DNA from: Phaeobacter gallaeciensis DSM 26640
GTDB lineage: Bacteria; Pseudomonadota; Alphaproteobacteria; Rhodobacterales; Rhodobacteraceae
Length of the DNA stretch: 64,000 nt
NCBI RefSeq assembly: GCF_000511385.1
Contig: NC_023137.1
Location: 875,001 to 939,000 of the forward strand
Direction: 5' to 3'
The position numbers and the translations under genes were made by a program. Of the stretch, positions 48,871-52,554 are shown one piece after another; within the stretch, counting starts at the first letter, position 1; every line of letters starts with the position of its first letter. Below the pieces are notes generated by a model that searched no databases, had not been told where the DNA came from, and saw nothing but the letters and a program-made list of their open reading frames with translations.

Positions 48871-50946
48871 TTAGCCTGCAATCAGCCCCATGTTTTCCAG
48901 CTTCAGCAGAACCTGATGGGCGCAGTTGTCGACGTCGACATTCTCGGTCTCGACACGCAGCTCCGGGTCGGCTGGTACATCATAAGGGTCGGAGATCCCG
49001 GTGAATTCCTTGATCTTGCCTTCACGGGCCAGTTTGTAGAGGCCCTTGCGGTCCCGGCGCTCACATTCCTCGATCGAGGTGGCAACATGCACCTCAAGGA
49101 AGGCGCCGAACTGTTCCACATCTTCGCGCACGGCGCGACGGGTGGTGGCGTAAGGCGCAATCGGCGCACAAATCGCGATACCGCCGTTCTTGGTGATCTC
49201 AGACGCCACATAGCCGATGCGACGGATGTTGAGGTCGCGGTGCTCCTTGGAAAAGCCCAGCTCGGAGCTGAGGTTTTTCCGCACGATGTCGCCATCCAGA
49301 AGGGTGACCGGACGGCCGCCCATCTCCATCAGCTTGACCATAAGAGCGTTGGCAATGGTGGATTTGCCAGAGCCGGAGAAGCCGGTGAAGAACACGGTGA
49401 AACCCTGTTTGGAGCGCGGCGGCTTGGTTTTGCGCAGCTCGTTCACCACCTCAGGGAAGGAGAACCACTCAGGAATTTCCAGACCTTCGGCCAGACGGCG
49501 GCGCAGTTCTGTGCCAGAGATATTCAGGATGGTGACGTTGTCGCGATCTTCGATCTCGTCATTCGGCTCATACTGGGCGCGCTCCTGCACATAGACCATG
49601 TGCTTGAAGTCGACCATTTCGATGCCGATTTCTTCCTGATGCTCACGGAACAGGTCCTGTGCGTCATAGGCTCCGTAGAAATCCTCGCCGGCGGAGTTCT
49701 TGCCGGGGCCTGCGTGATCACGACCAACGATGAAATGGGTGCAGCCGTGGTTCTTGCGGATCAACCCGTGCCAGACCGCCTCGCGCGGGCCTGCCATGCG
49801 CATTGCCAGATTGAGCAGCGACATGGAGGTGGTGGCGGCCGGGTATTTGTCCAGAACGGCCTCATAGCAGCGCACGCGGGTGAAGTGATCAACATCGCCG
49901 GGCTTGGTCATGCCAACAACCGGGTGGATCAGCAGATTGGCCTGAGCCTCACGCGCGGCGCGGAAGGTCAGTTCCTGATGCGCGCGGTGCAGCGGGTTGC
50001 GGGTTTGGAAGGCCACGATACGGCGCCAGCCCAGCTTGCGGAAATAGGCGCGCAGCTCGTTCGGGGTGTCGCGACGACCACGGAAATCATAATGAACGGG
50101 CTGCTGGATGCCGGTCACGGGACCACCGAGATAGATCTTACCTGCGGTGTTGTGCAGATAGTTTACCGCCGGATGGGCGTCGTCATCGGCGCCAAAAACC
50201 TTCTCGGCTTCGTGCGATTTATTCGGCTCCCAGCGGTCGGTCACAGTCATGGTGCCGAGGATCACACCTTCCTGATCGCGCAGCGCGATATCCTCGCCAA
50301 TCTCCAGCGAGGCGGCGAAGTCCTCAGAGACATCCAGCGTGATCGGCATCGGCCACAGGGTGCCATCGGCTAGCCGCATGGTGTCGACGACGCTGTTGTA
50401 GTCTTCTTCGTTCAGAAAACCCTTCAGAGGGTTGAAGCCACCGTTCATCAGCAGCTCCAGATCGCAGATCTGGCGCGGTCTCAGGTCGTGGCTTTTCAGC
50501 TCTGCGGCTTCGACCTTCAGCTTTTGTGCGGAGTCATAGGAGACGTAAAGCTCCGGGATGGGGGCAAGGTTATTTTGCATCAACTTGGTCCTGTACTTAA
50601 ATGGGACGAGGCCACTGGTGGTTCCGGTGAGTTCCGCATGCAGCGCATCATATTCAGCGAACTTGCGGGTGAGAAATTGATCGGTGAGCCGGATCTTCTC
50701 GGCGGCACCGCGGGTGGTGAGGGCATAGGCAAAGCGTTGGCGCTTGTCCGGGCCGGCGCGTGCGCTGACCTTGACAAGCCCCGCCTCAGCAGCCGCACGC
50801 AGCTGCGCATTGAGCCGACCCAGAGAGATGCCCACAGCCGCCGCCGTGGCCCGCTGCGAGGCGTCAGGCGCCTTGTCGAGCTGGCTGAGGATACGAAAGA
50901 GTAGATCTTCGTCCTCATGGCTTGGGGTGGTGGGGGAGGCTGGCAT
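48871..50946 (-). CDS. winged helix–ATP sulfurylase–APS kinase fusion
   Basis: A 691-residue fusion. Residues 1-112 form a winged helix like EPS-associated MarR regulators (LLFRILSQLDKAPDASQRAT, ISLGRLNAQLRAAAEAGLVK, LTTRGAAEKIRLTDQFL). Residues 123-510 are ATP sulfurylase (QTRNPLHRAHQ, VGRDHAGPG), and residues about 515-691 are APS kinase with P-loop FTGFSGSGKST near 520. Together the enzymes make APS and PAPS from sulfate. The linker (GLVPFKYRTKL) has no stop codon. An internal ATG at 50580 with its own AGGA site would give the usual 569-residue enzyme. The upstream ATG at 50946 lacks a clear ribosome-binding site. A stop-codon loss or dual start is possible; the enzyme part is certain. Confidence 0.92.
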   Translation of the reverse strand: MPASPTTPSHEDEDLLFRILSQLDKAPDASQRATAAAVGISLGRLNAQLRAAAEAGLVKVSARAGPDKRQRFAYALTTRGAAEKIRLTDQFLTRKFAEYDALHAELTGTTSGLVPFKYRTKLMQNNLAPIPELYVSYDSAQKLKVEAAELKSHDLRPRQICDLELLMNGGFNPLKGFLNEEDYNSVVDTMRLADGTLWPMPITLDVSEDFAASLEIGEDIALRDQEGVILGTMTVTDRWEPNKSHEAEKVFGADDDAHPAVNYLHNTAGKIYLGGPVTGIQQPVHYDFRGRRDTPNELRAYFRKLGWRRIVAFQTRNPLHRAHQELTFRAAREAQANLLIHPVVGMTKPGDVDHFTRVRCYEAVLDKYPAATTSMSLLNLAMRMAGPREAVWHGLIRKNHGCTHFIVGRDHAGPGKNSAGEDFYGAYDAQDLFREHQEEIGIEMVDFKHMVYVQERAQYEPNDEIEDRDNVTILNISGTELRRRLAEGLEIPEWFSFPEVVNELRKTKPPRSKQGFTVFFTGFSGSGKSTIANALMVKLMEMGGRPVTLLDGDIVRKNLSSELGFSKEHRDLNIRRIGYVASEITKNGGIAICAPIAPYATTRRAVREDVEQFGAFLEVHVATSIEECERRDRKGLYKLAREGKIKEFTGISDPYDVPADPELRVETENVDVDNCAHQVLLKLENMGLIAG
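50578..50592 (-). promoter_or_regulatory. internal ribosome-binding site and ATG for Sat-CysC
   Basis: On the minus strand, AGGA at 50592-50589, an 8-nt spacer and ATG at 50580-50578 lie inside the linker of the fusion gene. They allow independent translation of a 569-residue sulfate-activation enzyme, starting MQNNLAPIPELYV. Confidence 0.6.
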
Positions 50947-50963
50947 CGGGTCGACTCAAGGTG

Positions 50964-50979
50964 TGTTCATGCGTGAACA
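50964..50979. promoter_or_regulatory. inverted repeat upstream of wHTH–Sat–CysC
   Basis: TGTTCA-TGCG-TGAACA is a perfect 6-bp inverted repeat with 4-bp spacer, 17 bp upstream of the first ATG of the fusion gene. A MarR-like dimer would recognise such a site, so autoregulation by the N-terminal domain is an attractive but untested idea. Confidence 0.5.
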
Positions 50980-51030
50980 AATCTCACGCTTTGCAGTCGC
51001 AGCAAAGGCAAAACCACTACGCTTTGAGTG

Positions 51031-51130: not shown

Positions 51131-52554
<1,424 letters not shown>

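Follow-up and report, generated by a model that had tools for sequence, protein, structure and literature searches.

A winged helix fused to ATP sulfurylase/APS kinase in Phaeobacter gallaeciensis and its relatives: a candidate autoregulatory trigger enzyme for sulfate activation

The fused gene and its surroundings

The window analyzed here is a stretch of 64,000 nucleotides from Phaeobacter gallaeciensis DSM 26640 (contig NC_023137.1, positions 875,001 to 939,000), and the coordinates given below refer to it. On its reverse strand lies a reading frame (48871..50946) of 691 codons, which begins with ATG, ends at TAA and has no internal stop. Its N-terminal part (residues 12-107; 50626..50913, reverse strand) corresponds to a helix-turn-helix (HTH) domain of the MarR_EPS type: against a cut-off of 88 bits, the profile TIGR04176 scores 84.2 bits on the whole protein and 88.9 bits on the first 122 amino acids alone, and HTH_24 matches residues 14-59. 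The AlphaFold model of this domain, mostly at pLDDT 80-90, displays the winged-helix pattern, with helices at residues 10-25, 31-38 and 42-54, strands at residues 58-62 and 72-76, and a long helix at residues 78-107. The third HTH helix (residues 42-54; 50785..50823, reverse strand) is, going by the winged-helix fold, the likely recognition helix. The model is uncertain in the linker (pLDDT below 50 at residues 117-128) and poor in the enzyme part, which was left out of use (mean pLDDT of the whole 56.5), and a search by sequence for solved relatives of the HTH gave no usable match (best E 0.076).

The remainder of the chain is, by profile and motifs, a bifunctional sulfate adenylyltransferase/adenylylsulfate (APS) kinase, with the activity predicted accordingly. 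NF004040/PRK05537 covers residues 121-690 with 1043.7 bits (cut-off 669; profile positions 4-571 of 572), and PUA_2, ATP-sulfurylase and APS_kinase match residues 131-281, 292-506 and 514-665, respectively. The motifs that we take to be the catalytic ones of both enzyme domains occur in the 116 complete fused loci as QTRNP[LM]HRAH (116), GRDHAG (115), strict GFSGSGKST (104), LLDGD (116) and FTGI.D (116). By these profile matches a catalytic and a DNA-binding domain are combined in one chain, as is characteristic of trigger enzymes. In the window's genome, the fused gene is the only strong match to the APS-kinase profile (202.3 bits; the other match reaches 23.8 bits and covers a third of the model), and one match of the PAPS-reductase type was found. 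The initial annotation had described a single stop-free frame leading from a winged helix of the EPS-associated type into a complete sulfurylase-kinase, and this description stands.

The two parts are joined by a linker (residues 108-122; 50581..50625, reverse strand), in which the enzyme's own ribosome-binding site had been suspected from the start. An AGGA is indeed located there (50592-50589), formed by the AGG codon of R119 and the first base of the T120 codon, eight bases before the ATG of M123 (50580-50578). Initiation at this ATG is predicted to yield a short form, a sulfurylase/kinase of 569 amino acids (48874..50580, reverse strand). Upstream of the whole gene, the palindromic, operator-like site GTTCA-N4-TGAAC is found at positions 50965-50978, 18 bases before the start codon (extended form 50962-50981), and a conserved CTTTGC (51002..51007, reverse strand) represents a possible, uncertain -35 element. 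The upstream neighbor (51472..52476, reverse strand) is by its sequence taken to be trxB. Fused and unfused alleles share this location: among loci that have at least 2.4 kb upstream, trxB precedes the gene in the same orientation in 86/89 fused and 53/62 unfused ones. Between trxB and the fused gene there is also a frame of 114 amino acids (51131-51475, reverse strand); similar sequence was seen upstream in 12/89 fused and 4/62 unfused loci, mostly about 2 kb away.

Conservation and spread of the fusion

The fusion is real and conserved. A sample of 292 genomes from the order contains it in 83, each a member of the window's family, and always in frames of 690-788 amino acids; the next TIGR04176 matches in this sample were stand-alone proteins of at most 81 bits. 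Within the genus the fused frame is carried by six of seven genomes, among them that of the window. In a public genome collection the best 80 of 581 loci, which were picked by score so that fused ones are over-represented, all extend from residue 1-12 as far as residue 689-691, the closest named relative among them being Phaeobacter italicus (93% identity, full length). Among the matches listed for a sample of 289 genomes of the class, none outside the window's family covers the HTH. One record, L030, titled Nocardioides marinus, holds a Roseobacter-type fused gene at 89% identity; its assembly is probably mislabeled.

Within the family (295 genomes), TIGR04176 separates two populations, stand-alone proteins scoring 114-157 bits and a fused branch scoring 76-99 bits. 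The former are encoded by short frames, with the exception of G257 (a 335-aa frame with a stop); the latter is found in 57 genomes by count of matches, in frames of 690-797 amino acids, and in G038, where it is cut by the contig end. The HTH of the fused branch was not met as a stand-alone regulator, all its frames being of about 690 amino acids or more apart from the contig-cut one.

Individual loci were compared in a set of 198 enzyme loci (133 fused, 65 unfused) that is not a random one. The 65 unfused loci were taken from among the matches listed, and the 133 flagged as fused were reduced, by removing three copies of the window's locus and deduplicating, to 122, which still hold one exact HTH pair (L007 and L009). 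The initial annotation had made its reading depend on whether relatives keep the fusion in length and linker or always have two separate genes. The span L106-P129 measures 24 residues in 122/122 fused loci, and no intact HTH gene was found in the 900 bases upstream of each of the 65 unfused enzymes; relatives thus carry either the fusion or the enzyme alone, and a separate HTH gene adjacent to the enzyme is rejected. In L165 (G162:C81) alone, the enzyme frame, itself intact, is preceded by the decayed remains of a winged helix, interrupted by stops and a frame break; this locus lacks the operator as well.

Computed over 577 pairs, pN/pS comes to 0.33 for the HTH, 0.50 for the linker and 0.11 for the first part of the enzyme, values that are rough owing to high synonymous change. 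Invariant residues are present in the fused HTH, which by these comparisons is under purifying selection. In a tree of HTH sequences, the 122 fused rows fall on one side of a branch and 19 stand-alone MarR_EPS rows on the other (SH-aLRT 100); a single origin of the fused HTH is likely, and only likely, because the tree has few columns and long branches meet at this very split, as the tool warned. A simple stop-codon loss of little consequence, raised originally as an alternative, does not agree with the presence of the fusion in many genera, the purifying selection on the HTH and the kept linker length. A recent loss of this kind is rejected by the genus and order counts and the full-length matches given above, and a sequencing artefact by the genus count and the same full-length matches.

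The internal ribosome-binding site and start codon

In all 122 fused loci the linker contains AGGA, and a start codon (ATG in 115, GTG in 7) follows exactly four codons after the AGG. The residue next to the conserved arginine varies (T 98, S 11, N 10, M 2, I 1), while the first base of its codon is always A, and valine at position 123 is encoded by GTG in 7/7 cases. AGG makes up 157 of the 6364 Arg codons of the fused genes, and 121 of these 157 are the linker codon; it is used for 36 of the other 6243 Arg codons (about 0.6%), and eleven other conserved Arg positions, where CGN is usual, each show AGA or AGG 0-5 times. The arrangement recurs in 30 of 30 further fused loci (39 of 40 parsed, not L267, and 30 kept, L249 included) and in 29/29 of a separate parse, with AGGA and ATG or GTG at fixed spacing; in L262, L280 and L281 the linker is one residue shorter and the spacing is still kept. 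The internal start pairs with the anti-Shine-Dalgarno sequence at a mean of -4.35 kcal/mol (89% reach -4 or better) and the first start at -1.81 (2%), to be compared with -1.17 for 1798 other in-frame ATGs (9%) and -2.9 for the 65 unfused starts (18%).

Taken as a pattern of nucleotide conservation, these results indicate that the internal ribosome-binding site and start are kept by selection on nucleotides for internal initiation and are not vestigial. The initial annotation had seen in the linker the translated relic of an old intergenic region; this is corrected here, the linker being coding sequence under constraint that contains an internal ribosome-binding site likewise constrained. Since the internal start is strongly conserved and no stop separates the domains, the one frame should give rise to a long form as well as a short one. 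The possibility of two separate products, also raised earlier, holds in part: the short form is expected from the conserved internal start, but a product consisting of the HTH only is not, because without a stop between the domains any translated HTH is joined to the enzyme.

The palindromic site upstream of the fused gene

GTTCA-N4-TGAAC is present upstream of the fused gene in exact form in 119 of 122 loci and with one mismatch in two; it is missing from L056, a locus with only 73 bases of contig ahead of residue F17, which was entered as an operator miss. Within 250 bases before the first start, chosen by a rule, it was found in 118/122 fused loci, and in the enzyme interiors in 0/122. The 600 bases upstream of the unfused enzymes contain it in 0/65 loci exactly and in 1/65 with one mismatch. 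Ten control palindromes of the same design gave 0 occurrences in fused promoters, upstream of unfused enzymes, upstream of stand-alone MarR_EPS genes and in enzyme interiors. The word is exact in 28 of 29 further fused loci (40 minus ten duplicates of the earlier set and minus L249, unparsed) and has one mismatch in the other, these loci being of the same family as the first set and not independent in descent. As this operator-like palindrome accompanies the fused HTH and unfused alleles are without it, the fused HTH is very likely a regulator, and the idea of a sulfate-activating enzyme with its own DNA-binding domain is borne out in silico.

The same word lies upstream of stand-alone MarR_EPS genes in 9/20 loci (13/20 for the variant G[CT]TCA), so that it looks like the recognition word of the MarR_EPS family. 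Upstream of such genes (L217-L234), an element GCGGTAGC is found between palindrome and gene in 15/20 loci; we take it to resemble the RfaH ops element, a likeness that would suggest antitermination in polysaccharide operons.

In fused promoters the operator consensus extends to TGYGTTCACGCGTGAACACA. This 20-bp form is present at the fused-gene promoter in 20 of 24 fused genomes, four lacking the extended form; other such sites number two across the 24 fused genomes (G000 C3, G004 C8) and one across 10 unfused genomes (G105). By count of TIGR04176 matches, 50 of 57 fused genomes are without a stand-alone MarR_EPS protein of at least 114 bits. Binding of the fused HTH to the palindrome at its own promoter is the best explanation because the word is shared with the family, the extended site is near-unique and these 50/57 genomes have no such stand-alone protein, and we hold it to be very probable. 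A further mark of trigger enzymes, a binding site at the promoter of the own pathway, is thereby present in silico as a predicted operator. CTTTGC is conserved 24-29 bases upstream of the palindrome in a palindrome-anchored profile of 119 fused promoters. A -10 element sought in the fused promoters could not be placed, the promoter hexamers being uninformative; for this reason the case for repression is made from the position of the operator, which may overlap the transcription start.

Eight core palindromes occur in the window's genome: one at the fused promoter, five in apparent coding frames, one at a frame end (L240) and one before an SDR-type gene (L238), with the gene names taken from a reading of the translations. 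The last of these (L238:1226; G000:C1:2362425) has the same letters in the unfused genome G005 and is probably another regulator's site; the letters of an infC-like site are also present in G005. A wider regulon is without support, since the other core palindromes lie mostly in apparent coding frames and the L238 and infC-like sites occur also in unfused G005; in a search at the level of strong sites, the target list looks like one gene. An RNA switch was rejected as no Rfam match reached the gathering score in the 16 of the 65 unfused loci searched.

Fused and unfused alleles

The fusion has a patchy distribution and is dispensable. Mapped onto a tree of 116 fused and 65 unfused enzymes, the fused/unfused label requires 36 changes, of which well-supported branches force 8, compared with a mean of 53.1 for shuffled labels, and both states are found within several genera. 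G005, from the window's genus, is unfused, without HTH and operator, and its enzyme protein is 97.5% identical to the window's. At the DNA level this identity is 75-87% within the first 480 enzyme bases and 87-96% after them; the 5′ value by itself is not outside the range of the genus, since G006, a fused member, has only 82-87% identity to the window throughout. The lower 5′ likeness of this unfused allele (L119; G005:C1:2415827-2417536) is perhaps due to recombination.

Among nearest pairs (mutual nearest pairs count twice) with a 3′ identity of 0.88-0.90, the 5′ loss is -0.076 for pairs of different state (n=14) vs. -0.040 for pairs of the same state (n=20), and at 0.90-0.93 it is -0.087 (n=5) vs. 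-0.032 (n=23). No clear 5′ difference between same- and different-state pairs was seen at a 3′ identity below 0.88. This pattern suggests that a 5′ cassette has been exchanged by recombination.

Relation to known systems

BirA, the biotin ligase/repressor of Escherichia coli, resembles the proposed enzyme in having an N-terminal winged helix and in regulating its own pathway, with an adenylated intermediate; the enzyme and the HTH family are others, and we know of no conserved internal start that would release a free enzyme from it. PutA, the proline dehydrogenase/repressor, has a DNA-binding fold other than the winged helix of the fused protein, together with a redox/membrane switch. BirA, NadR, PepA, PutA and PyrH are named as trigger enzymes in the available part of PMC8249747. 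BirA counts there among multi-target regulators, and PutA is a bifunctional enzyme with one target region only, the control region of the gene that encodes it, to which it binds much as is proposed for the fused protein (PMC8249747). AerR of Rhodobacter capsulatus, a regulator from a related bacterium, is according to the available part of PMC6199135 made in long and short forms from one frame by internal initiation with a ribosome-binding site; it differs in being no enzyme-HTH fusion, in its internal start (CTG, codon 41) and in a second transcription start that was found.

The closest solved bifunctional sulfurylase/kinases by sequence are the Aquifex SAT/APS kinase (PDB 2gks) and PDB 3cr8, and the fungal sulfurylases 1i2d and 1m8p are also among the closest structures; the matches to 2gks and 3cr8 start at residue 150 or later and, unlike the fused protein, contain no HTH in the matched part. 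Stand-alone MarR_EPS proteins share family and operator word with the fused HTH, but are separate proteins with higher scores and lie on the other side of the HTH tree.

A Phaeobacter mutant in the enzyme's gene, PGA1_c24800, matched here by enzyme and not by fusion state, had unchanged selenium volatiles, as given in the available part of PMC3678758. In the available text of an R. pomeroyi proteogenomics study (PMC3305630), "adenylyl" occurs in the reference list only and "SPO0900" is absent, and that of a regulon survey (PMC5343134) has nothing on a sulfate-activating enzyme with an HTH. At title level, the literature matches listed include no sulfate-activating enzyme with its own DNA-binding domain and nothing relevant on its regulation or on MarR_EPS. 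The mechanism set out below would belong with the trigger enzymes; what would be new is that the enzyme activates sulfate, that the HTH is of this family, that the operator serves a single gene and that free enzyme is released from a conserved start.

Proposed mechanism and alternative explanations

The comparative evidence makes it likely, in our judgment, that the fused gene encodes an autoregulatory trigger enzyme for sulfate activation, one frame giving rise to a long form that binds DNA and a short form that is free enzyme. The first start, with its weak ribosome-binding site, would produce the 691-aa form with the N-terminal winged helix, and the internal start, with its AGGA site, the 569-aa free enzyme in the same frame; a weak first and a strong second start would result in many free enzyme subunits and few DNA-binding ones. 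The long form would bind GTTCA-N4-TGAAC just upstream of its own gene and turn the gene down when enough enzyme, or product-loaded enzyme, is present. Bifunctional enzymes of the sulfurylase/kinase type form oligomers. Because the palindrome needs two HTHs and most subunits would be short, oligomers with two long subunits, and with them binding, should rise steeply with the amount of enzyme, which would in this way meter itself. A ligand may tune DNA binding, PAPS or APS being the likeliest signal since fungal sulfurylases are regulated by PAPS at their C-terminal kinase-like domain.

The same operator would also serve a plain autorepressor, in which the HTH steadies expression, enzyme ligands have no effect and the fusion only ties the dose of regulator to the dose of enzyme. 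Every operator observation fits this explanation, no ligand effect appears among the sequence results, and a fixed linker length alone does not imply signaling, so that we regard it as quite possible; for such a purpose, however, a separate HTH gene would suffice, yet the fused-type HTH is never found apart from the enzyme, which is suggestive only. If instead the short enzyme were all that matters, the HTH would be a leader translated at low level and kept mostly for translation or by chance. The better anti-Shine-Dalgarno pairing at the internal site, the AGGA and start kept throughout and the common occurrence of unfused alleles would all agree with this, as would the 2D-gel table of a Roseobacter litoralis proteome, where, in the available part of the source, the row matched by enzyme name gives 64.39 (unlabelled), near the size of the 569-aa form (PMC4103551). 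The purifying selection on the HTH, with its invariant residues, and the operator that goes with the HTH nevertheless make this explanation unlikely.

Two further explanations detach either the operator or the internal start from the proposed role. The operator could belong to another regulator, e.g., a stand-alone MarR_EPS protein acting in trans, with some other role for the fused HTH; stand-alone genes do have the same word upstream, and cross-binding is for this reason possible where both kinds exist (7/57 fused genomes), but most fused genomes are without such a protein and the word is absent upstream of the unfused enzymes, which renders this explanation distinctly improbable. AGGA and M123, finally, could be kept for the protein, R119 and M123 being nearly constant residues across fused loci. 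The arginine is, however, AGG each time, whereas other conserved Arg positions usually have CGN, the valine at position 123 is always GTG, and the base after AGG is always A while residue 120 varies; a need of the protein is thus the explanation to which we give hardly any weight.

Implications

Returning to the autoregulatory trigger enzyme, we tentatively extend it, with somewhat less than even confidence, to a self-metering enzyme in many Roseobacter-type bacteria. A minority of DNA-binding and a majority of free subunits would form mixed oligomers that read the amount of enzyme and its PAPS/APS load at a one-gene operator, and operator, HTH and internal ribosome-binding site would swap between strains as one 5′ cassette by recombination, such that regulated and unregulated versions of a core gene are exchanged in nature. 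A rare Arg codon kept as ribosome-binding site offers a simple way to spot dual-product genes. If the proposal is true, natural fused and unfused alleles are at hand, even within one genus, and a regulator, an operator and a likely signal would be named for sulfate assimilation in abundant marine bacteria.
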